DNA from: a virus | Virus record (IMG/VR): IMGVR_UViG_3300028573_000019 | Coordinates: 1-58,193 of that record | Reading direction: 5' to 3' (one strand) | DNA length: 58,193 bases | Notes under the pieces: model-generated | Told to the model about the DNA's origin: nothing | Database searches by the model: none | The model's input: only the letters and a program-made list of their open reading frames with translations | Translations under genes and position numbers: made by a program | In this document: positions 5,562-56,900 of the stretch, in pieces | How positions within the stretch are numbered: position 1 is the first letter of the stretch | Layout: every line of letters begins with the position of its first letter

Positions 5562-5629
5562 GCACAGCGAGCGTTGGCCAGTTTGCTCGCCTCGCCAGAC
5601 GACATCCGCGCCGACCAGAGGGGAACATG
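5562..5629 (+). repeat. 68-base repeated gene leader, copy 2
   Basis: Second copy of the leader at 4823-4890. Eight differences are scattered mainly in the middle; the 5' 30 bases and the ribosome-binding site with the ATG are conserved. Its presence before two unrelated genes suggests a functional cis element rather than gene duplication. Confidence 0.6.
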
Positions 5630-5875
5630 AACCACGGCCCCAAGCACCACCGGACAGCAGAAGAGCGCGCGCGGATCGAGCGTCGTCTCGTGGAGATCTG
5701 GAACTCAGATCCTGAGATCACGTGCAGCGCGCTGGCCGAGCGCTTCCGCCTCTCGGGCACATACGTCGGCGACGTGCTGGCCCAGGCGTTGAAGGACGGG
5801 CGCACCACCAGGTCGACGAAGCCGGCGGCCTCTGACAAGCGCCGGGTGAAGCGCACTGCGGCGGGCGCGCGATGA
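5627..5875 (+). CDS. Small helix-turn-helix protein
   Basis: 82 residues beginning MNHGPKHHRTAEERARIERRL. The central part (ITCSALAERFRLSGTYVGDVL) fits a helix-turn-helix like those in resolvase- or sigma-like DNA-binding proteins; the C-terminus is basic. Its stop overlaps the start of the ParB-methyltransferase gene (ATGA), so the two are probably co-translated. Likely a DNA-binding accessory or regulator; exact role unknown. Confidence 0.55.
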   Translation: MNHGPKHHRTAEERARIERRLVEIWNSDPEITCSALAERFRLSGTYVGDVLAQALKDGRTTRSTKPAASDKRRVKRTAAGAR

Positions 5876-7086
5876 AGATCCATCCGCTCGCCGACGCGCT
5901 CCCGATGATGGCGGCGCTTGAACTCCAGCAGCTCGCCAACGACATCCGAGAGAACGGCCTCAACCACCCGCTCGTGCGGCGGAACGGCTGGCTCATCGAC
6001 GGCCGCAACCGCCTTGCGGCTTGCAAGCTCGCCAAGGTCGAACCGCGCTTCAGGGAACTGCCGGAGAGCGCCAGCGCGGCCGCCTTCATCCTGTCGGAGA
6101 ACGCGCGGCGCCGGCACATGAACGAGAGCCAGCTCGCGCTGATCGGCGCTCAGGCTCTGCCGCACTTCGAGGCTGAGGCGGCCGGGCGGAAGATGAAGGG
6201 GCGCAAGCCTGACCTTGGCGCCCCGGGGCGCCATGCCCCAGCAGGGGCCATGGAAGCAGCGGTGCCTGAGAAGGGCAAGGCCGCCGCCCAGGCTGCTGCC
6301 GCATCAGGCGCCGCACCCCGATCCGTCGAGCGAGCGAAGCAGGTCTTGAAGTTCGCCGCACCCGAGGTTGTCCAGGCCATCCGCGATGGAGCGTTGACGC
6401 TCAAGGATGCGGCGCGCGTCACCCAGAAGCCCGCGACCGAGCAGAAGCGGCTCGTGCGCGCTGTGTTGCGCGGCGATGCGAAGAACCTACAGCAGGCGTC
6501 GAAGGCCCAGACGGCTGCCCAACTCCGCGCAGCGCCGATCCCGATGCCCGGTGGCCCCTTCGGCGTCATCGTCGCCGATCCACCCTGGCGCTACGACCTC
6601 CGCGAGGACGATGAGAGCCACCGCGGCAAGACCGACTACGGGACGATGAGCATCGAGGAGATCCGTGCGCTCCCGGTCGCGACGATCGCGAAGCCGGACT
6701 CCGTCTTGTGGCTCTGGTGCACGAACGCCTTCCTGGTGCAGGACGATGCGCCGATCCAGCGCGTGCTGCGCGCCTGGGGCTTCGCTGGCGTCACGCTCCT
6801 CACCTGGGACAAGGAACGCTTTGGCGTCGGCAACCGGCTGCGGAACTCCACCGAGCACTGCGTGCTCGCTGTCCGCGGCGCACCGATCACCGAGGGCGGC
6901 AGCACGTCGACGCTGCTGCGTGAGATTCGCCGCCAGCACAGCCGCAAGCCCGAGTCGTTCTGGCCGCTGGTGGAGCGGGTCTGCCCTGACAGCGCGCGCG
7001 TGGAGCTCTTCAGCCGCGAGCCGCGCAACGGCTGGCAGGTGTGGGGCAACCAAACCGAGAAGTTCGCCGGCGAGGCCTCCCGATGA
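5872..7086 (+). CDS. ParB-like domain fused to MT-A70 adenine methyltransferase
   Basis: 404 residues. Residues 1-95 resemble the ParB/Srx nuclease-like N-terminus (LQQLANDIRENGLNHPLVRRNG, then LIDGRNRLAACK and FILSENARRRHM). A helical HTH-like linker follows to about 215. Residues 226-390 are an MT-A70 methyltransferase with the catalytic DPPW motif at 236-239, then a WLWCTNAF segment, a CVLAVRGAP segment and a WPLVERVCPDSARVELFSRE C-terminus. MT-A70 enzymes transfer a methyl group from SAM to adenine N6. In phages this fusion probably methylates DNA at sites recognised through the ParB-like part, for example against restriction. Confidence 0.85.
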   Translation: MKIHPLADALPMMAALELQQLANDIRENGLNHPLVRRNGWLIDGRNRLAACKLAKVEPRFRELPESASAAAFILSENARRRHMNESQLALIGAQALPHFEAEAAGRKMKGRKPDLGAPGRHAPAGAMEAAVPEKGKAAAQAAAASGAAPRSVERAKQVLKFAAPEVVQAIRDGALTLKDAARVTQKPATEQKRLVRAVLRGDAKNLQQASKAQTAAQLRAAPIPMPGGPFGVIVADPPWRYDLREDDESHRGKTDYGTMSIEEIRALPVATIAKPDSVLWLWCTNAFLVQDDAPIQRVLRAWGFAGVTLLTWDKERFGVGNRLRNSTEHCVLAVRGAPITEGGSTSTLLREIRRQHSRKPESFWPLVERVCPDSARVELFSREPRNGWQVWGNQTEKFAGEASR

Positions 7087-7711: not shown

Positions 7712-8115
7712 CCGAGACCCTCGCCATCCCGGGCCGTCCGGAGGCTCTCGTGCTCGAGCACCGCGCCGGCCGCGTGTTCTGGAGCGTCGGCGACTGCCGC
7801 GGCGACGAGCTCACCGCGGGCGCCGCGCTCGCCGTGGCGGAGCGATACCTGGGCGTGCGGGTGGTGCGCGAGGTCCGCGCGGCGCCGCGCCTGTCGGTGC
7901 GCCAGGTAGGACCCAGCAGCCGCAAGCCCGGCGCTGGTCCGAACATCGGCGTCGCCTATGTCAGCGCGACTGCTGGCGCCCAGTTCGCTCGCAAGTGGGA
8001 AGCGCAGGGCCCGCTCTGCCACCACGGCCAAGCGCAGAAACGTTGCGAGGCCTGCGACGGCTGGATGCACGTCTGCCCGGGCTCGGCGCCGCACAGCTGC
8101 TTCCAGGAGCCCTGA
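7708..8115 (+). CDS. Hypothetical protein with C-terminal Cys/His cluster
   Basis: 135 residues from a GTG at 7708 in a GTGA overlap. The N-terminus is mixed alpha/beta. The C-terminus carries CHHGQAQKRCEACDGWMHVC, a likely zinc-binding site. Located directly before the helicase gene, separated by one base. Family unknown. Confidence 0.5.
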   Translation: MTETLAIPGRPEALVLEHRAGRVFWSVGDCRGDELTAGAALAVAERYLGVRVVREVRAAPRLSVRQVGPSSRKPGAGPNIGVAYVSATAGAQFARKWEAQGPLCHHGQAQKRCEACDGWMHVCPGSAPHSCFQEP

Positions 8116-8116
8116 C

Positions 8117-10915
8117 GTGGATCTGCGCGACTACCAGGTCAGAGCGATCGAGCAGCTGCGCGAGCGCATCCGCGCGGGCGTGCGTCGGCTGCTGCTCTGT
8201 AGCCCCACGGGCTGCCATGCGCGCGGCCAGCGCGTGCTCATGTTCGACGGCAGCCTGCGCGCCGTCGAGGACGTGCGCAAGGGCGAGCGGCTCATGGGCC
8301 TCGACAGCACGCCGCGCACCGTGCTCCAGCTCTGCCGTGGCCGCGACCAGATGTTCAACATCGCGCCCACCAAGGGCGCGCCGTGGATCGTGAACGGCGA
8401 CCACGTGCTCACGCTGATTCGCACGAACGATGGTCCGCGCGGTGGCGAAATCGTCGACGTCACCGTGCGCGAGTGGATCGGCTGGAGCCGGACCGCGAAG
8501 CACGTGCACAAGCTCTTCCGCGTCGGCGTCGACTTCGAGTCCGGCGCGCTGCTCCCGATCGATCCGTACTTCCTCGGCGTGATGCTCGGAGATGGGATCC
8601 TCACGCGCACGGTCGGAGTCTGCAAGCCCGATCCCGAGATCAAGGCAGCCGTCGCGCGCGAGGCCCAGCGCTGGGGTCTGCGCATCTCGCTCGACCAGGC
8701 CGGCACCACGTCCGAGGTACAGAAACTGGTGGGCGTGCCTGGCAAGCCCAACCCACTGGTGAACGCGCTGCGCGCGCTGGGGCTGCACGGCGCCGACTCC
8801 GGATCAAAGTTCATCCCGAACGACTTCAAAACCGCGAGCCGCGACGAGCGCCTGGAGTTGCTCGCTGGCCTCGTCGACACGGACGGCTCGCTGGCTGGCG
8901 GCGGCTACGACTTCGTCTCCAAGTCGCGCCAACTCTCTGAAGACGTCGCGTTCCTGGCGCGCAGTCTGGGCCTCGCGGCCTACGTGGCCGAGTGCCAGAA
9001 GAGCGCACAGACGGGCGCCGTCGGCACGTACCACCGCGTCACGATCTCTGGTGACTGCTCGGTGGTGCCCTGTCGCATCCCGCGCCGTCGGGCTCCGCCG
9101 CGCCGCCAAGTGAAAGACGTGCTTCGCACCGGCTTCTCTGTCGAGCCGCTCGATGCGGATGACTTCTTCGGCTTCACGCTCGACGGCGACCAGCGCTACC
9201 TGCTTGACGACTTCACCGTCACCCACAACAGCGGCAAGACGGTCATGTTTTCGTCGATGGCGGAGTCGGCGGCCGCGCGCGGCAAACGCGTGGTGGTGAT
9301 CGCGCACCGCAAGGAGCTGATCGACCAGACGCACGCGAAGCTCGAGGCGTTCGGCGTACGCGCCGGCGTCGTCATGGCCAGCGACCCGCGCTTCGACGAC
9401 TACCTGCCGGTGCAGGTCTGCTCGATTCAAACGCTCGCGCGGCGGATGGATCGGCTCCCTCCAGCAGACCTGGTCATCTACGACGAGTGTCACCACGCCG
9501 TGAGCGAGACCTCGAAGAAGGTGCTCGAGGCCTACTCGAGCGCGGTCCTGCTTGGCGCGACGGCCACGCCCTGGCGCACCGACAAGCGCGGCCTGGCAGA
9601 TCTCTTCGACGACGTCGTGGTGGCTGCGACGCCGGCGGAGCTCATCGCCCGCGGCGCCCTCGTTCCCTACGACCCGTTCGCGTACGACGCGCCGGACCTG
9701 CACGACGTCGGGCTCGTCGCTGGCGAGTTCAACCAGAAGGAGCTCGGGCTCGCCTGCAACACCGACGTCCTCGTCGCCGACATCGTCCGCGAGTACTCCG
9801 AACATGCGCACGGTCGGCGCGGGCTGATCTTCCCGGTCGACATCGCCCACAGCCGGCACCTGGTCGCCGAGTTCCAGTCCGGCGGCTTCCATGCCGAGCA
9901 CCTGGATTGCGACACGCCCAAGGACGAGCGCGAGCGCATCATCGACGGGCTGCGCAGCGGCAGCGTGACGCTCGTCTCCAGCGTGGGCGTGCTCACCGAG
10001 GGCTTCGACGCACCGGCGGCCGAGGTGTGCATCCTCGCGCGGCCCACGAAGTCGCTCGGCCTGTATATGCAAATGGTCGGCCGGGTGCTGCGCCCGTCGC
10101 CGGACACCGGCAAGGCGCGCGCGCTGATCCACGACCACGCCGGCAACCTCCTGCGGCACGGCTTTCCCGACGACGACCGCGAGTACTCGCTGAGCGCGAC
10201 GCCGGCGCGCGTGCGCGAACTCTCCACGTGCCCGATGTGCTGCAGCGTCTTCGGCCGCGTCCGCGACGACGGCACGTGCCCCCGGTGCGGAGAGGTCATC
10301 GCGCCGCCGCGCGCGCAGGGCGCCAATGACGAGCCCGACGCCGACGCCGCCTCCGAACGCAAGACGGTCGATGGCGTTCGTCTCGACCGCGCGGCCATCG
10401 AGCGGCTGCGCGAGAGGCTGACAGGAGGCGGCGTTCGCCGCGAACTCACCGACCTGCAGGTGGTGCAGGTGTCGCAGGCGACCCGCGCGGACAAAGCCGC
10501 CGAGTACTTGCGGCTGCAGGCTGTAGCGGAGCGAAAAGGCTTCAAGCCCGGCTTCGTGGCCAATGCATACCGCGAGACGTTCGGGGTCTGGCCGCGCTTC
10601 AAAGACGAGGACCTCGCCGGCGTCGAGCCCGCCCACAATCCGTTTCTCCCGCTCCCATCCGTCGCGGCAGCGGCGCGACTGGCAGGTCTCCATCCAAATA
10701 CGGTTCTGAAACGCATGAAGGAAAAGGGATTGAGCCTCGAGGAGGCGCTCTCAACTGAGAAGTTCAAGACTGGCAGCCCGCCAGATCCGAACAGCATTTC
10801 AGGTAGAGCTCGACGTGCAGGACTGAGCGTCGACTTGGTCCATCAGCGACTTCATATGGGTTGGACTCTGGAGCAGGCCCTCAGCTGCGGGCCTGGTCAA
10901 AAGCGCCATGGCTGA
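8117..10915 (+). CDS. Superfamily 2 DEAD/DEAH-type helicase with an in-frame intein
   Basis: 932 residues as translated, of which 339 (Cys33 to Asn371) form an intein; the spliced helicase would be about 593 residues. The GTG start is one base after the previous stop; longer frames upstream would overlap that gene. Helicase motifs flank the insertion: RDYQVRAIEQL (Q-like), SPTG/SGKT (Walker A, split by the intein), VVIAHRKELIDQT, DECHH (motif II), GATATPWR (III) and QMVGRVLRPS (VI). A four-Cys zinc finger (CPMC, CPRC) follows near the end, then a C-terminal HTH-like repeat. Probably an ATP-dependent DNA helicase for phage replication or recombination, as it precedes VRR-NUC and VapE genes. 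Confidence 0.9.
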   Translation: MDLRDYQVRAIEQLRERIRAGVRRLLLCSPTGCHARGQRVLMFDGSLRAVEDVRKGERLMGLDSTPRTVLQLCRGRDQMFNIAPTKGAPWIVNGDHVLTLIRTNDGPRGGEIVDVTVREWIGWSRTAKHVHKLFRVGVDFESGALLPIDPYFLGVMLGDGILTRTVGVCKPDPEIKAAVAREAQRWGLRISLDQAGTTSEVQKLVGVPGKPNPLVNALRALGLHGADSGSKFIPNDFKTASRDERLELLAGLVDTDGSLAGGGYDFVSKSRQLSEDVAFLARSLGLAAYVAECQKSAQTGAVGTYHRVTISGDCSVVPCRIPRRRAPPRRQVKDVLRTGFSVEPLDADDFFGFTLDGDQRYLLDDFTVTHNSGKTVMFSSMAESAAARGKRVVVIAHRKELIDQTHAKLEAFGVRAGVVMASDPRFDDYLPVQVCSIQTLARRMDRLPPADLVIYDECHHAVSETSKKVLEAYSSAVLLGATATPWRTDKRGLADLFDDVVVAATPAELIARGALVPYDPFAYDAPDLHDVGLVAGEFNQKELGLACNTDVLVADIVREYSEHAHGRRGLIFPVDIAHSRHLVAEFQSGGFHAEHLDCDTPKDERERIIDGLRSGSVTLVSSVGVLTEGFDAPAAEVCILARPTKSLGLYMQMVGRVLRPSPDTGKARALIHDHAGNLLRHGFPDDDREYSLSATPARVRELSTCPMCCSVFGRVRDDGTCPRCGEVIAPPRAQGANDEPDADAASERKTVDGVRLDRAAIERLRERLTGGGVRRELTDLQVVQVSQATRADKAAEYLRLQAVAERKGFKPGFVANAYRETFGVWPRFKDEDLAGVEPAHNPFLPLPSVAAAARLAGLHPNTVLKRMKEKGLSLEEALSTEKFKTGSPPDPNSISGRARRAGLSVDLVHQRLHMGWTLEQALSCGPGQKRHG
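8213..9229 (+). other. Intein (protein-splicing element with LAGLIDADG endonuclease)
   Basis: 339 codons inserted exactly between SPTG and SGKT of the helicase P-loop. It begins with Cys1 (CHARGQRVLMFDGS, block A) and has a block B-like NGDHVLTL with His. Two LAGLIDADG-type motifs follow (YFLGVMLGDG and LLAGLVDTDG). It ends with a block F/G-like segment finishing FTVTHN before extein Ser+1. All canonical splice residues (Cys1, penultimate His, terminal Asn, Ser+1) are present, so splicing should be active. The endonuclease motifs look intact, which predicts homing ability. Confidence 0.9.
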
Positions 10916-44710: not shown

Positions 44711-44901
44711 GGGCGGTTCCTCTTTCTTGACGCTTTCGCCGCGTCCCTCTTGCGGCGGCGGGCGTCGATCTTCTTGCGCTCGGCGGGGGTGTAGTAGACC
44801 TTGGCTGCGGGAGGCAGGCTCCAGTGACGCACCTCGACGGATGGCTTCGATTCGGCCACCAGCAGGGCCGCAAGGGCGGCGGGCGGGAGGTGGCGGATCA
44901 T
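44707..44901 (-). CDS. Small basic protein after integrase
   Basis: 64 residues. MIRHLPPAALAALLVAESKPSVEV with a modest hydrophobic stretch, then very basic C-terminus KIDARRRKRDAAKASRKRNRP, possibly nucleic-acid-binding. Directly downstream of integrase, with its ATG in the ATGA overlap of the integrase stop. Confidence 0.45.
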   Translation of the reverse strand: MIRHLPPAALAALLVAESKPSVEVRHWSLPPAAKVYYTPAERKKIDARRRKRDAAKASRKRNRP

Positions 44902-46379
44902 CGCCCACCGTCCGAGCGGGGGCGGATGGAGATGGCGACGGCGCGAGATCGACCACCTAAACCCCCGCGCTTCCTTCGCCCGGGGACAGCGGGGACAGTC
45001 CGGCTCGAGCCGATTTTCGTTGCCGCCGAATCGCTCTTTCGCAACCCCGCGTCACCACGAGAGGCGGACTTCTGCCAAGAGCCTCCTGGCGCCTGCGGAC
45101 ACAGCTTCGAGTCCCGTACACCCCGCCAATCACCGCCGCCGTATCCATTCGTGGGTACGGCGGTTTTTTCTTGTCCGCGATCGACTGTCCCCGGGCTGTC
45201 CCCGGCCATCCTGAGCAGCTGCCCCTCCAGGCGCTCCACGCGCCAGCAAGAAACCGCCTCGCACAGCGTCTCCCATGGGAAGGTCGTGTACTGCGAGGTC
45301 ATGTCGGTGGGCGGGTGGGTGAGCCAGTCGATCAGGTCTTTGCGAGCTCCAGCGGCGCGGGTCAGCGACGTGAACGTGCGCCGGGTGTCGTAGGCGCGGC
45401 GCTTCCGCAGCCCTACGCGATCAAGGTCCTCATAGAAGCGCTTGAGCACGAGGCTGTTGCTGCGAGGTGCTCCACGGCGCGAGGGGATGATCATGTCGTC
45501 GAGCCCCGGCCCGCGATCCTCGAGACGCTTTAGCGCGCGCCACTCGCGCAGCATGTTCTGCCAGCCGGACAGTTTCCATTCGGCCAGCAGTGACGCAAGG
45601 GCAGGGTGGACGGGCAGGTAGCGGGTGGTCTCCGTCTTGGTACCCTTCACGCGCTTGCGCTTGCGGTCCATGGCCTTCGACACAGCCAGCCGGCCTAAGG
45701 GCTCGGCGCGCGTGTCGTAGTCGCCCCAGAGCAGTGCGGCGCCTTCTCCGGGCCGCATGCCGGTGAGGAAGTGCAGCGCGTACCAGACGCGGCGATCGAG
45801 CGGGATTCGCTCGTCGGAGATCAGCAACTCCACCTCGGGCGTCGAGAACACGGCCGTCGGGCGCCAGTTCGGATTGCGGTCCTTCTTCGGCGGGAGATCG
45901 CCGCGCTTGAGGATGCACGGGTCACGCATCAACTTGCCGTCCGCCTGTGCATCATGGGCGAGTTGGCGGATCACTGTGTAGATGTGACGAACCGTTCGCG
46001 GCGCCAAGACCTTGCCCGTACGCTTCGACTCCTTCTTCTTTAGCCCGCGCACAAACTCCTGCGTGTGCCTCGGCTCCCAGTCGGCGAGTACCACGTGGCC
46101 GAGCGCGGGCAGCACGTGCTGATTCAGCCGCGCCTCGTCGTCGCGGTAGGTCTCAAGGTCTCGGTGCATCCGATCCTTGAGCCAGCCATCAGCGTACTTG
46201 CGCACCGTCAGCGGGCCGCGGTCGGGCTTCTCGCCCTTGCCCGTGAGCGCCGCGATCGTGCCCTCGAACACCTCAAGCGCGCTGGCGCGGTCGCGCTGGC
46301 CTGTGCTCTCCCACGAGCGCTCACCGGCCGCGTTGCGATAGCGCATCCACCAGAGTCCGCCTCGCAGATAGATGCCCAT
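44898..46379 (-). CDS. int: Tyrosine integrase (site-specific recombinase)
   Basis: 493 residues. N-terminal arm-binding-like domain (YLRGGLWWMRYRNAAGERSW), a SAM-like core-binding domain (57-155) and a catalytic domain about 175-390. Catalytic residues visible: Arg209 (GMRPGEGAALLWGD), Arg333/334 in YDTRRTFTSLTRAAG, His355 and Tyr364 (WLTHPPTDMTSQY). The last 95 or so residues are low-complexity because the ORF passes through the attP-like site and a terminator. Integrates the phage into a tRNA gene; the Xis-like gene is just upstream. Confidence 0.9.
   Translation of the reverse strand: MGIYLRGGLWWMRYRNAAGERSWESTGQRDRASALEVFEGTIAALTGKGEKPDRGPLTVRKYADGWLKDRMHRDLETYRDDEARLNQHVLPALGHVVLADWEPRHTQEFVRGLKKKESKRTGKVLAPRTVRHIYTVIRQLAHDAQADGKLMRDPCILKRGDLPPKKDRNPNWRPTAVFSTPEVELLISDERIPLDRRVWYALHFLTGMRPGEGAALLWGDYDTRAEPLGRLAVSKAMDRKRKRVKGTKTETTRYLPVHPALASLLAEWKLSGWQNMLREWRALKRLEDRGPGLDDMIIPSRRGAPRSNSLVLKRFYEDLDRVGLRKRRAYDTRRTFTSLTRAAGARKDLIDWLTHPPTDMTSQYTTFPWETLCEAVSCWRVERLEGQLLRMAGDSPGTVDRGQEKTAVPTNGYGGGDWRGVRDSKLCPQAPGGSWQKSASRGDAGLRKSDSAATKIGSSRTVPAVPGRRKRGGLGGRSRAVAISIRPRSDGGR
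45101..45128 (+). other. Putative attP core (tRNA 3'-end identity)
   Basis: On the plus strand 45106-45128 reads as the 3' end of a tRNA: T-loop TTCGAGT, T-stem 3' strand CCCGT, acceptor strand ACACCCC, discriminator G and CCA. The five bases before the loop pair only partly with CCCGT, as expected if identity with the host tRNA begins at the loop. It lies inside the integrase gene. Predicted target: a host tRNA whose 5' acceptor strand is GGGGTGT. Confidence 0.65.
45136..45169 (+). terminator. Intrinsic terminator next to attP
   Basis: Perfect 8-bp stem CCGCCGTA / TACGGCGG around a 12-base loop, followed by six T. On the plus strand it lies seven bases after the tRNA-like CCA end, so after integration it would terminate the host tRNA transcript. 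On the minus strand it is coding sequence of the integrase tail. Confidence 0.85.
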
Positions 46380-46723: not shown

Positions 46724-46758
46724 CCTCCCCTCCCGCCCTCGTTGACGGCGCGGGTCAT
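46720..46758 (-). CDS. 12-codon coupling ORF
   Basis: MTRAVNEGGRGG, starting in an ATGA overlap with the ASCH gene and ending in an ATGA overlap with the Xis-like gene. Its sequence also contains the GGGAGGGGAGG ribosome-binding site for the Xis-like gene, so it may be a translational-coupling leader rather than a functional peptide. Confidence 0.35.
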   Translation of the reverse strand: MTRAVNEGGRGG

Positions 46759-47216
46759 CGGTACACCTCTTCCGCGTTCAGCCGGCGGCGCCACTGCACC
46801 AGCACGCGTTCGTAAACATCCGCCGGCACCTTCCAAAGCCCCTGCGCGCCTCGGCACGCCACCGGCTCGGGCAGCTCGACCACATCGGCCAGCGTCCAAC
46901 CCACCGGCCCGAAGAACCACGGCGAGGCGGATTCGGCGACGAAGCCGGTCACTCGGGCGACGGCGAGGATTGAGCCGCACTGGTCACCCATGGCGCCGAT
47001 GGAACTCGGCAGCGGCGCGCGGCAATTGACGTGAGCGAAGCTCGTGTTGCTCGCGACCTCGGCGATGTCCCACTTCTTCCCTGCGTGAATCGCGAGCCAG
47101 TTCCCCACCAACGATTGCGGCGGGCGCCAGGAGCGGTTCTCGATCGGCTTGTAGCCCTTGGCGATGAACCAGGCCCAAGGCTGGTGGATCGTCAGGGCGC
47201 GAAGGTTGGCGCTCAC
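46755..47216 (-). CDS. ASCH domain protein
   Basis: 153 residues from GTG 47216. LTIHQPWAWFIAKGYKPIENRSW at the N-terminus, LAIHAGKKWD, and CGSILAVARVTGFV are the conserved core of ASCH domains, which bind RNA or modified nucleotides. Phage ASCH proteins are thought to recognise modified RNA or protect against defence; the exact ligand is unknown. Confidence 0.8.
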   Translation of the reverse strand: MSANLRALTIHQPWAWFIAKGYKPIENRSWRPPQSLVGNWLAIHAGKKWDIAEVASNTSFAHVNCRAPLPSSIGAMGDQCGSILAVARVTGFVAESASPWFFGPVGWTLADVVELPEPVACRGAQGLWKVPADVYERVLVQWRRRLNAEEVYR

Positions 47217-47443
47217 TTGCCGCCTCGGGCGTTGATCGCGACGGCGGCGGCGGCGGCCTCGGACCTCGCTTCTTGCTCCGCCTTGAGCTCGGCCCGGATG
47301 AGCTCGCGCAGGCGCGGCCACACGCGTTCGAGGAACGCGTCGAGTTGCTCCGGGTGCGAGTACGGGAACTCGTGCACGTCCGTGACCTCGTGGAGCTTGC
47401 CCTCGAAATTCTCGTTGGGCACGCTGTAGCGATAGGTCTTCAC
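47213..47443 (-). CDS. Hypothetical 76-residue protein
   Basis: MKTYRYSVPNENFEGKLHEV, then LDAFLERVWPRLRELIRAELKAEQEAR, a charged helical C-terminus ending INARGGK. ATG lies in an overlap with the preceding gene. The same KARGGK-like ending occurs in the next upstream gene. Function unknown. Confidence 0.5.
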   Translation of the reverse strand: MKTYRYSVPNENFEGKLHEVTDVHEFPYSHPEQLDAFLERVWPRLRELIRAELKAEQEARSEAAAAAVAINARGGK

Positions 47444-47685
47444 TTGCCACCTCGGGCTTTGATCGCGTCCGCGATGGCGCGAATATGCACCAGCACCGAC
47501 CAGTCCGCGGCTGGACTACCAGCGTATTGATTGAGTACGCCGACGATCTTGGCCCTTTCCTCCACCCGCGCCGCCTCGATTGCAGTGGAGGCGCAGGCCA
47601 CGCAGACGATCGTGTGCCCCGTCGACATGTCGACCACGCCCTCGATTGGGTGCTGGCAGTTCTCCAAAATCTTTTCAGCGTTCAT
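47440..47685 (-). CDS. Small Cys-containing hypothetical protein
   Basis: 81 residues. MNAEKILENCQHPIEGVVDM, then CVACASTAIEAARVEERAKI (a CxxC pair preceding a helix). Ends AIADAIKARGGK. Typical of small zinc-binding phage early ORFs. ATGA overlap with neighbours. Confidence 0.5.
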   Translation of the reverse strand: MNAEKILENCQHPIEGVVDMSTGHTIVCVACASTAIEAARVEERAKIVGVLNQYAGSPAADWSVLVHIRAIADAIKARGGK

Positions 47686-48986: not shown

Positions 48987-50041
48987 GACTTTTCCCCCTC
49001 GCGGGCGGACAGGGCCTTGTCCTTGGGCGCCGGCTTCAGCATGCTCCAGCGATCGGCGCAGGAGATGTGGGCCGGGCGCGAGCCGTCCCAGATGCAAGCG
49101 TGGTACTCCGGGACGGGATCGCCACAGATGAAACAGCGACCTTCGAGAGGTGCGGGCGCCGGCTTCGCGGCCTCGGGCTGGGGCGCCTTCTCGTTCATCC
49201 TCGCCAGCGCCTCCACGTCCCTCTCGCACCCCGCGCAGCCGTCGACGTGGATGGCGTGGTCGCAGGCTGGGGAGGGCTGGGGCGACGCGGAGGGCGTGGC
49301 AACGGCGACGGCTGGTGTGGATCCGATCTCACCTAGTATGGATCGAACGGGAAGTGTGGACTTGCAGTGGCAGGGATAGGATCCGTGGCTGAAACTCGTG
49401 GTCGCGCCGCAGGGTCCGTCGCCGTGCGGCGGGTGAAAACATTCGCCGCAGTATTCGATCCCCTCGCGGCAGCGCACGGGTTCGGGCCTGTAGATCATCC
49501 CGTAGCCGTCACCACCGGGGATGCTGGGACCGCGGATGCTCTTCATCTCCGTCTTCGCGCCCACCGTCTCGGCGGGGCTGGGGGCAGAGAGGGCGGCGTC
49601 GATACGACGCAGGTAGTCCTCGCGGGCCACCGAGGCGATGTGCATGTCGGGCTCAGCGGCAATCTCGCCACGCAGTCGCCCCAGTAGTTCCCGCGCCCGG
49701 GCGAGATCGGTCTCGACCTTGGTCAACGCGGGGAGGTTCACGCGCAGGGTCCGGCTGCATCCGTCGCACACCGTGTCGACAGTGCGGACGCCCTCCGCGC
49801 GCAGCCGGTCGCGCTCGTCTCGGGCCAGGTTGAGATTGAAGGTCGCGCGATCCCGTTCTTTCTCCGCCGCCGCGGCTCGGGATTCGGCGGCGGCGAGGCC
49901 GCGCTGGTACGCCTCCTCGCAGACGCGTCGCATCTCTGCGGCGGCGATGAGGAACTCGCCGGCCGTGGCGTTGACTTCGATGGGTCGGCCGTCGACGGGG
50001 TCGCGTCCGTTCGCACGGAGGTCTTTCAGAGCTTCACTCAT
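48983..50041 (-). CDS. Coiled-coil protein with multiple zinc-binding sites
   Basis: 352 residues. N-terminal 80 residues helical coiled coil (AAESRAAAAEKERDRATFNL), then CDGCSRT, a helical part, and a Cys/His-rich central region (CREGIEYCGECFHPPH). Further toward the C-terminus are CAGCERDVEALARM and CFICGDPVPEYHAC. Proline-rich linkers separate them. Likely a DNA- or protein-binding scaffold; no family recognised. Confidence 0.5.
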   Translation of the reverse strand: MSEALKDLRANGRDPVDGRPIEVNATAGEFLIAAAEMRRVCEEAYQRGLAAAESRAAAAEKERDRATFNLNLARDERDRLRAEGVRTVDTVCDGCSRTLRVNLPALTKVETDLARARELLGRLRGEIAAEPDMHIASVAREDYLRRIDAALSAPSPAETVGAKTEMKSIRGPSIPGGDGYGMIYRPEPVRCREGIEYCGECFHPPHGDGPCGATTSFSHGSYPCHCKSTLPVRSILGEIGSTPAVAVATPSASPQPSPACDHAIHVDGCAGCERDVEALARMNEKAPQPEAAKPAPAPLEGRCFICGDPVPEYHACIWDGSRPAHISCADRWSMLKPAPKDKALSAREGEKS

Positions 50042-50406: not shown

Positions 50407-50595
50407 CTACTCGTCCTCCAGCCCGGCCATCGCCCGCGCGCCCTGGACGAGCAGGTTGATGTTTGCGGCGACCTGCCGCCCGGTGTGGTTGTTCTCGAAC
50501 GCTGCGGAGATGGTGAGGTCCAGCGCCTGGAGCAGCTCGTCGAGTGCGTCCGTCGCGAGGCACTGGTGCTGCTCTTCTGGCTTGGTGGTCTTCAT
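50407..50595 (-). CDS. Hypothetical 62-residue helical protein
   Basis: MKTTKPEEQHQCLATDALDELLQAL, then LTISAAFENNHTGRQVAANINLLVQG. Predicted all helical. ATG overlaps the stop of the Mom-like gene. Possibly a partner of the modification genes by proximity only. Confidence 0.45.
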   Translation of the reverse strand: MKTTKPEEQHQCLATDALDELLQALDLTISAAFENNHTGRQVAANINLLVQGARAMAGLEDE

Positions 50596-51392
50596 GCGGC
50601 CCTCTGAAACTTCGGGTACGGGAGCGTGGGCAGCCGCTCCAGGTCTCGACGCGCCGAGCGCTGCAGCGCCCACGCGTACTTGTGATTTCCGGGGTGGCGG
50701 ATCCCGCGTGCGACGCGCGGCAGCTCGCGCTCAAGCCAGGCTCTCGGGTCGGTGCCGATGCCCTGCGCAGACGCGCCCGCGGCGATGAGCTGACCTGCGA
50801 TGTACCGCCAGCCCCGCTCCAGGTTGCGGAGCTTCGAGAGCGCGCGGGGCGCGAGCAGTCGACCATCCGCGAGCAGGCGCAGCGTCGCCGGCCGCCCGCG
50901 GCCCAGGTACACCGCGTTGTGCGCCTGGTAGATGGTTCCGACGTGGCCACCGAAGATCACCGCGCCCGCCGCGGTAGTGCGGGCGACCGGGTCCGAGAAG
51001 CTCACAACGCCACGTAGACCTTCGCGCCGGAGCTGCTCGAAGCAGCGCGCCAGGAACCAGGTCTCGCCGTTACCGGGCACCCGGTCGAGGAGCACGAAGC
51101 GACCAAGCTCCACGCTGTCGGTGGCGCTGCCCGGGAAGACCTTGGTCAGGGTGCGGTCGTTGCTGGGGTGCGAGAAGACGGCCACGCCGACGAACTCGCC
51201 GCGCTCGAGGAGCCCGAAGCGGAAGCGTGCGGCCGGGTAGCTGGCGCTGTAGTGGTGGCGCTCGACAAAGGCGCGCGCGAGCGAATCGGAGCCCAGGGCG
51301 GCGACCTCAAAGTCGCCGGTTCGGATGACCTCGCCGGCGGGTCGGTAGCTGTCGCGGCGCTCGCGCCAGCGCTGGGCCAGGGTGGTGATCAA
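50592..51392 (-). CDS. Mom-like DNA-modification protein (acyltransferase-type)
   Basis: 266 residues from a TTG at 51392 overlapping the methyltransferase stop (TTGA). Features of the Mom-like family (adenine methylcarbamoylation): FVERHHYSASYPAARFRFGLLERGEFVGVAVFS, then ELGRFVLLDRVPGNGETWFLARCFEQLR, VVSFSDP, HVGTIYQAHNAVYLGRG and C-terminal RHPGNHKYAWAL. In Mu, Mom converts adenine to an acetamidated form that blocks restriction enzymes. Here the gene is translationally coupled to a C5 methyltransferase. Substrate not proven. Confidence 0.8.
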   Translation of the reverse strand: MITTLAQRWRERRDSYRPAGEVIRTGDFEVAALGSDSLARAFVERHHYSASYPAARFRFGLLERGEFVGVAVFSHPSNDRTLTKVFPGSATDSVELGRFVLLDRVPGNGETWFLARCFEQLRREGLRGVVSFSDPVARTTAAGAVIFGGHVGTIYQAHNAVYLGRGRPATLRLLADGRLLAPRALSKLRNLERGWRYIAGQLIAAGASAQGIGTDPRAWLERELPRVARGIRHPGNHKYAWALQRSARRDLERLPTLPYPKFQRAA

Positions 51393-52879
51393 GCGGCGCT
51401 CCGAAGCAGCTCGCGGGGCGCATTCGCGCGAACGATTGCCTCTGCGTGCTCGGGGCAAACGGAATTCCCCACAAGTTTGACCTTGCCCTCTTCGGTGTTC
51501 GCGGCGCTGAGGTCGTAGCCCTCGGCGAACCTTCCGAACTGCGCGCGCAGGAGCTCGTGCCAGCGCAACATCCGCAAGCCGATGTCGACGATCTGGAACT
51601 CGACGCCGTGCACCGTCACCAGGCCCAGCCGGTGCCGCGTGGTGATCGTGCGCAGCGGGTCGAAGAGCGATTGCCCCTCGTCGTTGCCGTAGTAGACGGC
51701 GAGGAAGGCGCGCACCTCGGCAACGTGGTTGCCCTGCGCGGAGATGGTGGGCATCGGCTCGCGCGGATCTGCGCTGTGGCAATCGCCGCGGAACTTCACG
51801 AGCGTCGCCGCCGTCAGCGCATGGTGGTCGCGCGCCGTGATCGTCGGCAGCGGGATCTCCATCTGCGTGCCGACCATGCCGCCGAAGAAGCGAGCGATGA
51901 ACGCGGTCACAAGGGCGTGCTTCTGGCCGGTGGCCATGACCGTGCCCAGGGGCTCGTGGATGTCGAGGTAGCGCGGGCGCTGCCCGGGGCGCTCGCCGTA
52001 GCCGGTCTGGACCAGTGTCGGCGCGACCAGGGCGTGCCCGCGTCGCTGCGCCGTCACGGTGCTCAGCGGCTCCCGGATGGACGCGCTGCGGTCCTCGCGT
52101 CCACCGTGATTCACCTGGACGATGAACGGCTCCGCGCTCTCCAGGACGAAACGCCGGATGCCCTGCGCCACGCGCCAGAGCGTCTTCTCCGCGAGAGGCT
52201 TCTTGCGGTCGAAGATCGACGGGCAGGGCAGGGACCAGTCGATGCACTCGGCCGCGGCGCGCTGCGGCTTCAGCCCGCGCCCGTGGGTTGGAGCTGGCCA
52301 GCGGATGGGCTGTCCGTCTCGACGGGCCACCAGAAAGAGGCGCTTCCGGCTCGTGGGCGCACCGTACTCGCTCGCCACCAGTACCCGGTGCTCGACGTCG
52401 TAGCCCAGCGCGCGGAGCTGGCGCACCCAGCGGTCGAACGACTCGCCCTTTCGCGCCTTGATGGGCATGTCGCGCTCGTCGAGCGGGCCCCAGTCGGCGA
52501 ACTCCTTCACGTTCTCCAGGAAGATGATTCGCGGCTTCACCGCCGACGCCCACCGCACAACCGCCCACGCCAGCGAGCGCTTCTTGCCGGACCGAGGCTT
52601 GCCGCCCTTCGCCGCGGAGTGATGGGTGCAGTCGGGAGACGCCCAGAGCACGTCCACGCTGCGGCCCTTGGTGGCGGCGCGGGGCTTCACCTTCCAGATG
52701 TCGGCCTCGAGGTGGAGCGTGTTCGGGTGGTTCGCTTTGTGGGCAGCCAGGGCGATCGCGTCGTGGTTGAGCGCGATGTCGACGGAGCGCCCAAGGGCGG
52801 CCTCCAGCCCCGTCGAGGCGCCACCGCCACCGGCGAAGAGGTCGACGATGAGACCTGCGCTGTCGCTTCCGATGTCCAT
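51389..52879 (-). CDS. C5-cytosine DNA methyltransferase
   Basis: 496 residues from ATG 52879; an upstream in-frame ATG at 52954 is less likely because it lacks a ribosome-binding site. Conserved C5-MTase motifs: I DLFAGGGGAS (13-22), IV SPDCTHHS with catalytic Cys84, VI ENVKEF (122-127), then VIII/IX region and X LVGNSVCP. Methylates cytosine C5 at an unknown target. A long target-recognition region spans roughly 230-420. No restriction partner is nearby, so it is probably for self-protection. Confidence 0.9.
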   Translation of the reverse strand: MDIGSDSAGLIVDLFAGGGGASTGLEAALGRSVDIALNHDAIALAAHKANHPNTLHLEADIWKVKPRAATKGRSVDVLWASPDCTHHSAAKGGKPRSGKKRSLAWAVVRWASAVKPRIIFLENVKEFADWGPLDERDMPIKARKGESFDRWVRQLRALGYDVEHRVLVASEYGAPTSRKRLFLVARRDGQPIRWPAPTHGRGLKPQRAAAECIDWSLPCPSIFDRKKPLAEKTLWRVAQGIRRFVLESAEPFIVQVNHGGREDRSASIREPLSTVTAQRRGHALVAPTLVQTGYGERPGQRPRYLDIHEPLGTVMATGQKHALVTAFIARFFGGMVGTQMEIPLPTITARDHHALTAATLVKFRGDCHSADPREPMPTISAQGNHVAEVRAFLAVYYGNDEGQSLFDPLRTITTRHRLGLVTVHGVEFQIVDIGLRMLRWHELLRAQFGRFAEGYDLSAANTEEGKVKLVGNSVCPEHAEAIVRANAPRELLRSAA

Positions 52880-52968
52880 CGCTCTTCTCTCGCTCACGGC
52901 AGGCTCAGGGGTTGTGGCCGGCGCCCGCTCCGACGGGCGACCGGCGTGGGACATGCGCGCGAGGAGGG

Positions 52969-54294
52969 CTACGCGCTCGCGCCGGGCTGCTCGTCGCTCG
53001 ACGCAACGGGCTCGACTGCCTGCGGCCCGCTGGCTTCGCCGTCTTCGATGACCACGGCCGCGTCCTCGGGTTTGCCGACGACCTCGAGCCAGGCCTGCAT
53101 GTCGTTGGCCTCGCAGAACCGCTCGAGCTCGGCCATCGAGTCCTCGTCGAGCAGCGAAGCGTCTCGAATGAGGAAGACGCGGAGCTTGGGGTTCTTCGCC
53201 TTGGCCATGGCCAGCGAGACGATGAGTTGCTCAGCGGCGCTGGACTGCTCGAACGGGATGCCCTGGTAGGTGAGGCCGTCCTCGCCAAACCCGAGCCCAG
53301 CGACGGGGAAGGGCGCCTCGGCGATGAGCTTCTGCCGCTGGGCGTCCAGCGCGTCGATGCGGTCCGTCAGCCCCGCAGACTGGCCACTGAGTTTCAGGTG
53401 CTCAGCCACCGCCACCGCGCGCGCCTTCTTGGACCGCACGCGTCGGTTCGTCTCCTCGACGTCGCGCAGCTCCTGGTCGACGACGGCGAAGTCCGGGTCC
53501 ACGAGGTTGGCGGCCGATTGCTCCGCGGCCGCGTGCGCGGCCTTCGCTTCATCGAGGGAAAGTTTGGAGCCGCGGGCGCTCTTCTCGGCGAACTCCAGTT
53601 CCTTCCTGAGCCGCTCGATCCGCTGGAGCACCTCTGCATGGCCGCGCTCGTTGATGGCCACCACGCGCTTGGCGTCCTCTACCTTGCCGCGCCGCCGGTC
53701 GTTCTCGGCTTTGAGCTCCTGCATCAGCTGGCGCTCCTGCAGCAGGTCCTGGATCGAAACCTCCTCGTCGGGCGCCTGCACCTCCGGCAGCCCGTCCAGC
53801 CGGACCTTCGCGGCCGCGGCGTCGCGGTTCACGTGCGTGCGCTGGTCGTAGGCGCCCTGGCGCTCGCCGTCGATCTTCGACGTGTCGATGCCCACCAGCT
53901 GGCGCACGACCTCGAGCTGGCGCGCCGGCTTCTCCCGGAGGAACGCGACGGGGTCGAACGCGAGCTCGTTGGTGAACTTGTCGAGGATGGCCTGCGGCGA
54001 CGGGTAGACCGCGCCGTACTTGGAGCGCACCTTGAGGTAGGTGCCCTTCGACGTCCAGGTGCGCTCCACCACCAGGTCGCCCAGCTCGGCGACCACGCGG
54101 GCCTTCTCCTCGCCCTTGCGGATCATCTTCGGCTGCTGCGCGTCCTTGCCCGCGAACAGCGCCTCGATCGCGTCGAGCAGGCTGGTCTTGCCCTGCTTGT
54201 TCTTGCCCGCGACCTTGATCACCGCGCCGGTGGGGTTGATGGCGACGGCCTTCAGGCGCTTCACGTTCTCGGCTTCCAGCCTCACGATTCGCAT
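52969..54294 (-). CDS. Rad50/RecF-like SMC-type ATPase
   Basis: 441 residues. N-terminal ENVKRLKAVAINPTG with Walker A GKNKQGKTS, a long coiled coil (about 165-310), and a C-terminal ABC signature SSAAEQLIVSLAMA followed by Walker B LRVFLIRDASLLDED. This is the head-coil-head layout of RecF/Rad50 proteins. Probably acts with the nuclease and gp3-like protein in phage recombination or DNA end processing. Confidence 0.85.
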   Translation of the reverse strand: MRIVRLEAENVKRLKAVAINPTGAVIKVAGKNKQGKTSLLDAIEALFAGKDAQQPKMIRKGEEKARVVAELGDLVVERTWTSKGTYLKVRSKYGAVYPSPQAILDKFTNELAFDPVAFLREKPARQLEVVRQLVGIDTSKIDGERQGAYDQRTHVNRDAAAAKVRLDGLPEVQAPDEEVSIQDLLQERQLMQELKAENDRRRGKVEDAKRVVAINERGHAEVLQRIERLRKELEFAEKSARGSKLSLDEAKAAHAAAEQSAANLVDPDFAVVDQELRDVEETNRRVRSKKARAVAVAEHLKLSGQSAGLTDRIDALDAQRQKLIAEAPFPVAGLGFGEDGLTYQGIPFEQSSAAEQLIVSLAMAKAKNPKLRVFLIRDASLLDEDSMAELERFCEANDMQAWLEVVGKPEDAAVVIEDGEASGPQAVEPVASSDEQPGASA

Positions 54295-54308: not shown

Positions 54309-55535
54309 TCAGGGGGTGGCAGCAGCGGGCGCGCCATCCACGGCGGCCGGCAGCGCGGCGGGCTTCGGCTTGTGCTCACGGAGCGAGACGCCCGGCCGCA
54401 TCACGACGCCGCCGGCGGCCTCGAGCTCCTCAAGGACCTGGCGCAGCGCCGGCGCGACCTTCACGCCGCTGCGGTGGCGCACGATCTCCAGCGCCCGCTT
54501 GATGCTTGCCTGCGACGCCGCGCGCTCCACGGCCAGATCTGCGATGTCACGGCCGTGAAGCTTCTCGACGACCGCGAACGTCTTGTCACCGTCGAGCGAC
54601 TTCTTCTCGGTGGCCACGGGCCCGTAGAACAACCCGTCACCCAGATCGATCGGGTGCTCGCCGGCCCAGCCGCGCAGAGCGCCCTCGACCAGCTCGAGCG
54701 CATCCTTGGCCATCTTCAACTGCGCGTACGCGCGCGCCGCGAGTTCCGGCGTGAGGCGCGCGCGGATCTCGTCGGCGACGTCCCCCGGCTGCGTGGCCAT
54801 CCGCGCCACCAGCTGCACGTACGCCGGGCAGTGCGGCCGGCCCGGGCAGTGGACGCACCAGAGCCCGGTGCGAACGTTCGGCGCAGCACCGGCAGCGACG
54901 CGGGCGCGCTCGGCGGCGGCCTGGTCGCGTGCGGCGAGGAGCTGCTCCTCGATGGCCATCAGGTCCTCGGGCCCGAACTCGGCCTCGTCGAACCAGGGCG
55001 TCCGGTCGTCGCGGGTGCGGATGATCGCCACCTTCGCGCGGGTGAGCCCGTACGCGCGGCATGCGGCGAGCGCGAGGAACCGCAGCTGCATGTTCACGCG
55101 CGCCGGCGGCAGCTCGGCCCAGCCGGTCTTGAAGTCGGCGACGAGCGCGGTCTCGTTCTCGATGCCGAGCACGTCGATCGCGCCGGGCACCTCGGTGTCG
55201 CGGATGTCGTAGCGCCGCTCGAGGTTCTGCCCGAGCTCGCGCGCCTCGCCCGTCTCGAGGTCGTACGCGAGGGCGACCTCGGGTCGGAACCTGCTCGGAT
55301 CCACCGGGAGCAGGTCCAGCGGCAGCGCGGCGCAGGCCTGGTGGTACTCGGGCGTTTGCTCGAGCACGAGCGCGAGCGCTGCCGTGTGACCCATCGCCGC
55401 GCAGTCGGCGAGGAACTTGTGGAGCACCTGGCCTCTGCTGGCCGCCTCGGTCTCACTGTCGACGCGGGGCAGGGTGGTCGAGCCAGGGCAGTGCACCGCG
55501 CGGTGCAGCCCGCTGGCGGAAGGGAGCTCACGCAT
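54309..55535 (-). CDS. PD-(D/E)XK nuclease (DUF2800/Cas4-like)
   Basis: 408 residues. RGQVLHKFLADCAAMGH (His), PGAIDVLGIENETALVADFKTGW (DxxDFKTG: catalytic D...D-x-K) and a CVHCPGRPHCPAY cluster, together with a preceding acidic site, are the features of Cas4/DUF2800-type phage exonucleases with an FeS or zinc cluster. The Cys motif suggests a 4Fe-4S site. It is coupled to the gp3-like gene. Confidence 0.85.
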   Translation of the reverse strand: MRELPSASGLHRAVHCPGSTTLPRVDSETEAASRGQVLHKFLADCAAMGHTAALALVLEQTPEYHQACAALPLDLLPVDPSRFRPEVALAYDLETGEARELGQNLERRYDIRDTEVPGAIDVLGIENETALVADFKTGWAELPPARVNMQLRFLALAACRAYGLTRAKVAIIRTRDDRTPWFDEAEFGPEDLMAIEEQLLAARDQAAAERARVAAGAAPNVRTGLWCVHCPGRPHCPAYVQLVARMATQPGDVADEIRARLTPELAARAYAQLKMAKDALELVEGALRGWAGEHPIDLGDGLFYGPVATEKKSLDGDKTFAVVEKLHGRDIADLAVERAASQASIKRALEIVRHRSGVKVAPALRQVLEELEAAGGVVMRPGVSLREHKPKPAALPAAVDGAPAAATP

Positions 55536-56796
55536 GAGCGGTTCCGTTCTTCGCCTTGGCGAGCGTCGCCTGCTTGTTGGTGTACGCCTCGATCGCGCGC
55601 TTCTTCTCGGCCGCCGGGAGCGCGGAGATCGCCTTGAAGGCCTTCCGCATGCCCGGTCCGTCGGTCGCGGTGCTCACCAGGTCGAGGGCCTGCGCCAGCG
55701 GGGACCCGGCGTCGACCGCGCCCACGGGCTTCTTGGGGAACTCCACCACCTCGGCAGCGGGCGGCTGAGGCTGCTCGACCTGGCGATCTTGAGGGGCCTC
55801 GTTGGCGACGTGCTGGCTCTGCTCGTAGACCGCAGCGGGGTCGATCTCCGACACGGGCGCCGGCGCGGTCCGGGCGGGATCAGCTAGCAGGACGTCGGGC
55901 ACATGCGCCGCGTCCTGCGACGCCGCGGGTGCGCTCCACGTAGCGCCGGGCGCCTCCTCCGGCGGGTGGAACTCGGTGGCGATCGCCTCCTGCTCGTCGG
56001 GCGACTCGTCCTCGCCGGGAGCGGCCAGGAGCTTCATGTACTCGGCGCGAGCGGCGTGGATCTGCCGCGCGTTCACCAGCCGGAGCTGAGCCAGCTGGGC
56101 GCCGAGCTTCTGCGCCTCGGTGAGGTCGACGCCGCGGAGCTCCACGTGCACCACATAGACGGTCGACGGCTTGCCCTCGGGCGCCACCTGCTTCGGGCGC
56201 ACCACCATGCGGAGCGGCAGGCCCTGGAGCACGCCACCGGTGAGCTGCTGCAGGTGCACCAGGCAGCCGTAGAGCTGCTCGAGGCTGATGATCGACGTCG
56301 TGCGGAACTTGTAGACGCCGCCCATGCGCGCGTCGCCCAGGGCGATCACGCAGTTGAAGGTCGAGTGCGTCTTCCAGTTCGCGTCCTCGTGCTCTCCGTT
56401 GCACGGACGCGATACAGGCTCGGCGAGCGCGTTGCCGTCTCGGCCGGTGAAGTAGGTGCAGACCTCTTCGTCGCAGGACGCGGAGATCTGTCGGCCCGCG
56501 TAGAGGCAGTGCCGCGAGAGGAGCACCTCGTCGACGTCGTCGGAGAGCAGCGCGATCGGGATCTCGCGGAGCTTGCCATCCGGGCTGCCGTGCAGCTTCA
56601 CGAGCTGCTCCATCAGCTGCTTGTCCGGGATGTAGTTGCCGACCTTGTCTCGCTCCAGCGTGGTGATCAGGAAGTGATCGAGCTTCTCCGGCTTCTGCCA
56701 CGAGGAGCCGCCGCGGCCCTGGCGGACCTGCTCCTCCTTGCGGCCGATCTTGATCTTCCCGAGTTCGGTGACCTGCGGACGGATGGACTTCAACAT
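55528..56796 (-). CDS. gp3-like recombination directionality factor-type protein
   Basis: 422 residues from ATG 56796 (AGGAG upstream). N-terminal ELGKIKIGRKEEQ, then SWQKPEKLDHFLITTLERDKVGNYI and REIPIALLSDDVDEVLLSRHCLYAGRQISASC, followed by TYFTGRDG and CNGE, fits the gp3-like family that includes the phiC31 recombination directionality factor. Acidic/Pro-rich C-terminal half. In tyrosine-integrase phages its role is not established; next to recombination genes it may bind ssDNA or regulate recombination. Confidence 0.75.
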   Translation of the reverse strand: MLKSIRPQVTELGKIKIGRKEEQVRQGRGGSSWQKPEKLDHFLITTLERDKVGNYIPDKQLMEQLVKLHGSPDGKLREIPIALLSDDVDEVLLSRHCLYAGRQISASCDEEVCTYFTGRDGNALAEPVSRPCNGEHEDANWKTHSTFNCVIALGDARMGGVYKFRTTSIISLEQLYGCLVHLQQLTGGVLQGLPLRMVVRPKQVAPEGKPSTVYVVHVELRGVDLTEAQKLGAQLAQLRLVNARQIHAARAEYMKLLAAPGEDESPDEQEAIATEFHPPEEAPGATWSAPAASQDAAHVPDVLLADPARTAPAPVSEIDPAAVYEQSQHVANEAPQDRQVEQPQPPAAEVVEFPKKPVGAVDAGSPLAQALDLVSTATDGPGMRKAFKAISALPAAEKKRAIEAYTNKQATLAKAKNGTAHA

Positions 56797-56900
56797 GACG
56801 TGCTCCTGATTCGAGAGAGGGTTCGCCCAGCCCACCGTGCTCGGTGAGACGCGCCGGCCTGCCGGCCTCAGCGCGCCGGCCTATTCCGCCGGGCGTAAAT

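Follow-up and report, generated by a model that had tools for sequence, protein, structure and literature searches.

A predicted anti-restriction cassette of overlapping C5 methyltransferase and Mom-family genes in a probable temperate, Mx4-like phage

Mom proteins are phage DNA modifiers for which protection from restriction is a known role (PMC6483171, PMC7824862); the product of phage Mu Mom is N6-(1-acetamido)-adenine (PMC10286901). Multi-modification jumbo phages such as PA5oct carry several DNA modification systems, Mom included, with Mom domains that are typically fused to nucleases and with no pairing of Mom to a C5-cytosine DNA methyltransferase (C5MT) (PMC7824862). In Staphylococcus phage Alsa_3 and Polaribacter phage P12002L, Mom lies directly beside a DNA methyltransferase gene on the same strand, although these neighbours are N6/N4- or D12-type enzymes rather than C5. 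Myxococcus phage Mx4 has a C5MT (p21) that overlaps the downstream gene p22 by 4 nt, and has neither Mom nor an MT-A70 adenine methyltransferase. Here we describe IMG/VR virus record IMGVR_UViG_3300028573_000019 (58,193 bp, GC 67.6%; hereafter 'the window', meaning this whole stretch), in which a C5MT gene overlaps a Mom-family gene by 4 nt and an MT-A70 gene lies elsewhere. The enzymes belong to known families and the phage is of a multi-modification kind already described (PMC7824862); new, as far as our searches show, is that the C5MT-Mom pairing recurs and came about several times inside a single Mom clade, and no report of the pairing was found in the titles, abstracts and passages of the literature searched. 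Our main reading, to which we give a probability of roughly 0.72, is that 50.4-52.9 kb forms an anti-restriction cassette of coupled C5MT and Mom genes in a leftward operon of a temperate, Mx4-like myovirus.

The Mom-family gene spans 50592-51392 on the minus strand and would encode an adenine-modifying protein of 266 aa. The original prediction of a Mom-like product was borne out by profile searches, which placed it inside the family: it scored 90.8 bits against the Pfam Mom profile PF25680 (cut-off 27.1; E 1.2e-25), with residues 36-261 aligned to positions 9-202 of 202, and it matched PHROG 1384 (phrog_1384, 'Mom-like') at 3.7e-29. A profile of 27 Mom proteins, Mu Mom itself among them, matched a single chain in the PDB, namely 8bv8 (Mu Mom, 'Methylcarbamoylase mom'), at 6.6e-52. 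The AlphaFold2 model, built without the Mu sequence, reached a mean pLDDT of 92.5 and again found 8bv8 as its best PDB match in Foldseek (E 9.4e-11, TM 0.63/0.74), the modelled GNAT-like fold being closest to Mu Mom. Across the 27-member alignment H47, Y48, E95, R98, S131, D134, G152, Y155 and Q156 are kept from Mu to the window's clade, including the conserved H-Y, E, R, D and YQ of the family, and with profiles, fold and residues all indicating Mom, a placement outside the family was rejected. The gene begins at a TTG (51392-51390), a credible start because close relatives have an ordinary methionine at the same residue (LITTLAQRW in the window, its L read as M, against MIATSNQRW in L004 and MITAVAQRW in L009) and because a Shine-Dalgarno-like GGAG (51399-51402, minus strand) stands 6 nt before it. 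Relatives of 59-63% identity occur in Myxococcus eversor, a Myxococcaceae MAG and a Myxococcales MAG, and the comparison marks out a large Mom clade that spans viral contigs and bacteria, Myxococcota included.

The gene upstream (51389-52879, minus strand; an alternative, longer start is possible at 52954) is predicted to encode a C5MT of 496 aa and phrog_116 type that would methylate cytosines. It matches the Pfam profile DNA_methylase (PF00145) at 2.5e-27 and phrog_116 ('DNA methyltransferase') at 2.4e-90, and its motifs are intact: DLFAGGGG, SPDC with the methyltransferase cysteine, ENV and GNSV. SPDC, ENV and GNS are invariant across the alignment of its relatives, and motif IV reads PDC, not PPC, in 23 of 23 aligned sequences. 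The closest relative in the phage collection is Mx4 p21, at 62% identity. Within the target-recognition region (residues about 250-430) lie about five tandem PLxT(V/I)TA repeats at intervals of 32-40 residues; simply counting the motif gives from none to eight or nine in relatives. AlphaFold2 modelled the catalytic core well and the repeat region at a pLDDT of about 30. As an aside, the row of repeats could be a modular, evolvable array of specificity.

Coordinates and frames of the two genes hold as first described, and so does the start of Mom over the methyltransferase stop: the four letters TTGA at 51389-51392 contain both the C5MT stop (TGA, 51389-51391) and the Mom TTG. The operon extends beyond the 50592-52879 originally delimited, through a 62-aa ORF without a Pfam match (50407-50595, minus strand) whose ATG overlaps the Mom stop as ATGA. 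The overlap had been taken to mean that the two proteins should be made together. One operon with overlapping genes is consistent with this, but 25 of the 66 neighbouring gene pairs in the related phage Mx4 overlap by 4 nt, so that the TTGA argues for a shared operon rather than a special partnership, and coupling need not have been selected; the idea that the overlap is remarkable in itself was rejected.

The pair recurs elsewhere. C5MT directly precedes and overlaps Mom in the window (TTGA) and at three other loci, L007 (GTGA), L087 (TTGA) and L093 (GTGA). At L092 (6783-9332) the order is reversed, with Mom first and an ATGA overlap leading into an 849-aa ORF that has an N-terminal C5MT, and L020 holds a looser pair separated by about 180 nt; the C5MTs at these two loci and at L093 differ in type from the window's. 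The nearest counterpart is L007, on contig G004 (IMGVR_UViG_3300036766_001847), where a C5MT of the same type overlaps a Mom of 63% identity and a ParB-like/MT-A70 protein (38%) is present on the same contig, 7.6 kb from Mom and on the opposite strand. The structural genes common to the window and Mx4 gave no match in G004, and the G004 C5MT carries about three additional repeats. Leaving the window and L020 out of the count, C5MT and Mom are adjacent in 4 of the 16 contigs that hold both genes among the matches listed, against 0.43 expected under a null of random placement that ignores the clustering of accessory genes (p about 0.0005). Mapped to the Mom phylogeny, these six pairs require six changes, at least five of them forced by well-supported branches, in a tree whose bootstrap had not settled; with at least five forced gains or losses, C5MT and Mom did not descend together as a single block. 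C5MT-Mom pairing is thus a recurrent arrangement, put together on several occasions in the same Mom clade.

The strongest competitor to a functional cassette is that the operon simply gathers anti-restriction cargo, the two genes being overlapped and co-expressed with no joint function. Such an accumulation would sit well with the ordinariness of 4-nt overlaps in these phages, with the scatter of adjacent pairs over the Mom tree, and with the genes immediately upstream of Mom, which vary widely among the matches listed: ParB_N (16-23 of 84), C5MT (4), DpdA, ArdC, N6 methylases and DnaB. It accounts less readily for an adjacency above random placement among those matches (4 against 0.43), seen whichever gene comes first and across different types of C5MT. 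We consider it unlikely on balance, though a serious contender.

If the two genes do form the cassette proposed, C5MT and Mom would be translated from one mRNA, ribosomes finishing the former restarting at the overlapping TTG with the aid of the GGAG, so that both enzymes are made together. The C5MT would then yield methylated cytosines, and Mom would probably place a small amide-bearing group on the N6 of adenine. The conserved features that Mom shares with Mu come with several departures: 24% identity overall, an insertion of 11 residues in the window's clade between SFSDP and GHxGTIYQA, a longer C-terminal part, and Thr111 in place of Mu Ser124. The last position is T in 21 and S in 6 of the 27 aligned members; it was changed to Ala in 8bv8, the crystallised inactive form, and by alignment Thr111 retains the hydroxyl. 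These differences, with an identity of 21% across the structural match to 8bv8, are what would be expected if the product or target of this clade differed from that of Mu Mom. The other strongly conserved residues are kept and the fold is most like that of Mu Mom, and we regard such a divergence as rather unlikely. The wording of the mark as an 'acylated' adenine is doubtful, since the PDB entry for Mu Mom names it a methylcarbamoylase and its product is described as N6-(1-acetamido)-adenine (PMC10286901), even if one account does describe Mom chemistry as acyl transfer (PMC7824862). The window is unlike Mu in setting as well: its Mom shares an operon with recombination genes instead of standing at the genome end, and no Com gene accompanies it. 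Com (PF10122) was absent from the window in a search that recovered it in Mu as a positive control, and regulation of the window Mom by a Com homologue was rejected.

Why cytosine and adenine modifiers might be paired is suggested by base composition. The site of Mu Mom is SASNY. At 67.6% GC, A and T are missing from 49% of the 6-bp palindromes in this genome and from 62% of the 4-bp ones, and a Mu-type Mom site overlaps just 27% of those of 6 bp. Without a partner, Mom would leave the A/T-free half of the 6-bp palindromes exposed; it would shield part of the restriction sites, the cytosine modifier filling the gap, and close relatives of this Mom would often be accompanied by a C5MT because it covers the A/T-free sites. 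Searching the whole records behind the Mom loci for PF00145 and PF05063 found a C5MT in 16 of 39 close-Mom records and 2 of 29 distant-Mom records (Fisher p 0.0019), and in 9 of 22 against 1 of 20 when restricted to records of 30-110 kb (p 0.0098), counts among the Mom matches listed and a contrast confounded by ancestry. Within the close-Mom group, GC did not differ with C5MT presence (p 0.72); the notion that C5MT presence tracks GC there was rejected, and the argument from GC therefore depends on how close and distant Moms compare. A bolder version, in which high-GC phages have repeatedly built coupled C5MT-Mom cassettes to cover A/T-free sites and the Mom clade makes a hypermodified adenine other than that of Mu, seems to us distinctly unlikely. 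Were the pair to work as proposed, it would be a compact, recurrently assembled means of masking cytosines and adenines in a GC-rich phage genome, and would predict which restriction enzymes each partner defeats; the window, L007, L087, L092 and L093 offer cloneable test pairs.

The genome around the cassette bears on what the modifications would be for. From terminase to baseplate genes, at 14.9-33 kb, the window is collinear with Mx4, and a terminase search found only four relatives. A tyrosine integrase is encoded at 44898-46379, and the leftward operon, all on the minus strand, has as its first large gene a Gp3-like recombination directionality factor (55528-56835; PF18897, 1.1e-26), followed by a DUF2800-like PD-(D/E)XK nuclease (54309-55535; PF10926, 8.5e-12; PF12705, 8.7e-8) and, upstream of C5MT, a putative SMC/RecF-like AAA ATPase (52969-54294; a weak AAA_23 match of 3.5e-5, just under the cut-off). 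The integrase and directionality factor point to a temperate phage, and the Mx4-like structural genes, together with Mom relatives in Myxococcus eversor and the Myxococcales MAGs, to a Myxococcota-type lineage; this is probably a temperate, Mx4-like myovirus of Myxococcota. That its C5MT shares an operon with recombination genes could be read as a sign that the modifications serve regulation or the timing of packaging, as with orphan methylases or lysogeny control, rather than restriction evasion. We find this improbable, given the known protective role of the Mom family (PMC6483171, PMC7824862) and the presence of the anti-restriction genes ArdC and DpdA among the other neighbours of Mom. A further idea is that the pair supplies the modification function of a restriction-modification system, with the matching nuclease encoded at another place in the phage genome; the nuclease fusions of some jumbo-phage Mom domains (PMC7824862) and the PD-(D/E)XK protein two genes upstream might suggest as much. 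This is highly improbable, as the latter protein is of the DUF2800/PDDEXK_1 kind beside an ATPase and an excision factor, i.e. part of a recombination module, and the pair has no restriction endonuclease coupled to it. Most likely, then, these enzymes disguise the phage DNA from bacterial restriction enzymes, from a cassette that shares its leftward operon, and presumably its timing, with recombination genes.

The third modifier had been predicted as a ParB-MT-A70 adenine methyltransferase made from the rightward operon, and such a gene is present. The plus-strand gene at 5872-7086, which shares an ATGA with the upstream ORF 5627-5875, encodes 404 aa that match MT-A70 (PF05063) at 5.4e-33 with the DPPW motif intact at residue 236. 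Its ParB-like N-terminal part is matched by phrog_4715 (1.1e-11, residues 17-212); phrog_21315 covers nearly the whole protein, phrog_359 also matches, TIGR00180 does so at 3e-4, below its curated cut-off, and Pfam gave no match to ParB_N. The enzyme would add m6A at sites other than those of Mom: a given N6 can carry m6A or the Mom product but not both, so the two marks must fall on different adenines. Of the claim that methylated cytosine, methylated adenine and a Mom-type adenine could coexist in one phage, the presence of all three enzyme families stands, but the two adenine marks are not additive on a single base. Broad resistance to restriction would be a plausible consequence.

The combination had also been thought unusual, and this holds. 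Among the matches listed, MT-A70 is rare in Mom records, occurring beyond the window in G004, G015 and G027, and all three enzymes are present in the window, in G004 and in G027, where they are unlinked on one contig (locus L083). The trio is therefore uncommon among sampled records but not unique, and its uniqueness to the window was rejected on the evidence of L007, with its GTGA-overlapping pair, and L083. Among 17 further Mom records from cultured phages, C5MT was found in two (DillTech15 and phiKp_21) and MT-A70 in none, the latter search having no positive control of its own although the same profile matches the window; in cultured HGTV-1, DillTech15 and phiKp_21, Mom and C5MT are both present and are not neighbours. 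Approached from the other side, a search of 39 C5MT records gave no Mom match above the cut-off and a single weak one; the idea that Mom is a general companion of C5MT loci was accordingly rejected, and this C5MT family mostly occurs without it. Peptide-pattern searches of viral contigs for relatives of the ParB-MT-A70 protein or of the window's helicase/primase found none, and so provided no control set from the same lineage.

Several smaller observations were made along the way. The commonest gene upstream of Mom is not C5MT but one for a ParB_N protein (16-23 of 84 loci among the matches listed), which is about 170-200 aa long and lies directly before Mom, often overlapping it, at L033, L035, L177, L181 and in many viral contigs. 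The gene directly before Mom is DpdA, for deazapurine insertion, in a gut phage contig and the anti-restriction gene ArdC in another contig, the loci of these Moms being L003 (1083-2273) and L010 (8246-9982). The Mx4 gene coupled to its C5MT, p22, gave no Mom match and is homologous to 46755-47450 (minus strand) of the window, with a further copy in G004 at 49458-49916. The helicase ORF at 7958-10915 (plus strand) has an apparent intein in its Walker A motif, reading ...LLCSPTG / CHARGQRVLMFDGSL ... LLDDFTVTHN / SGKTVMF.
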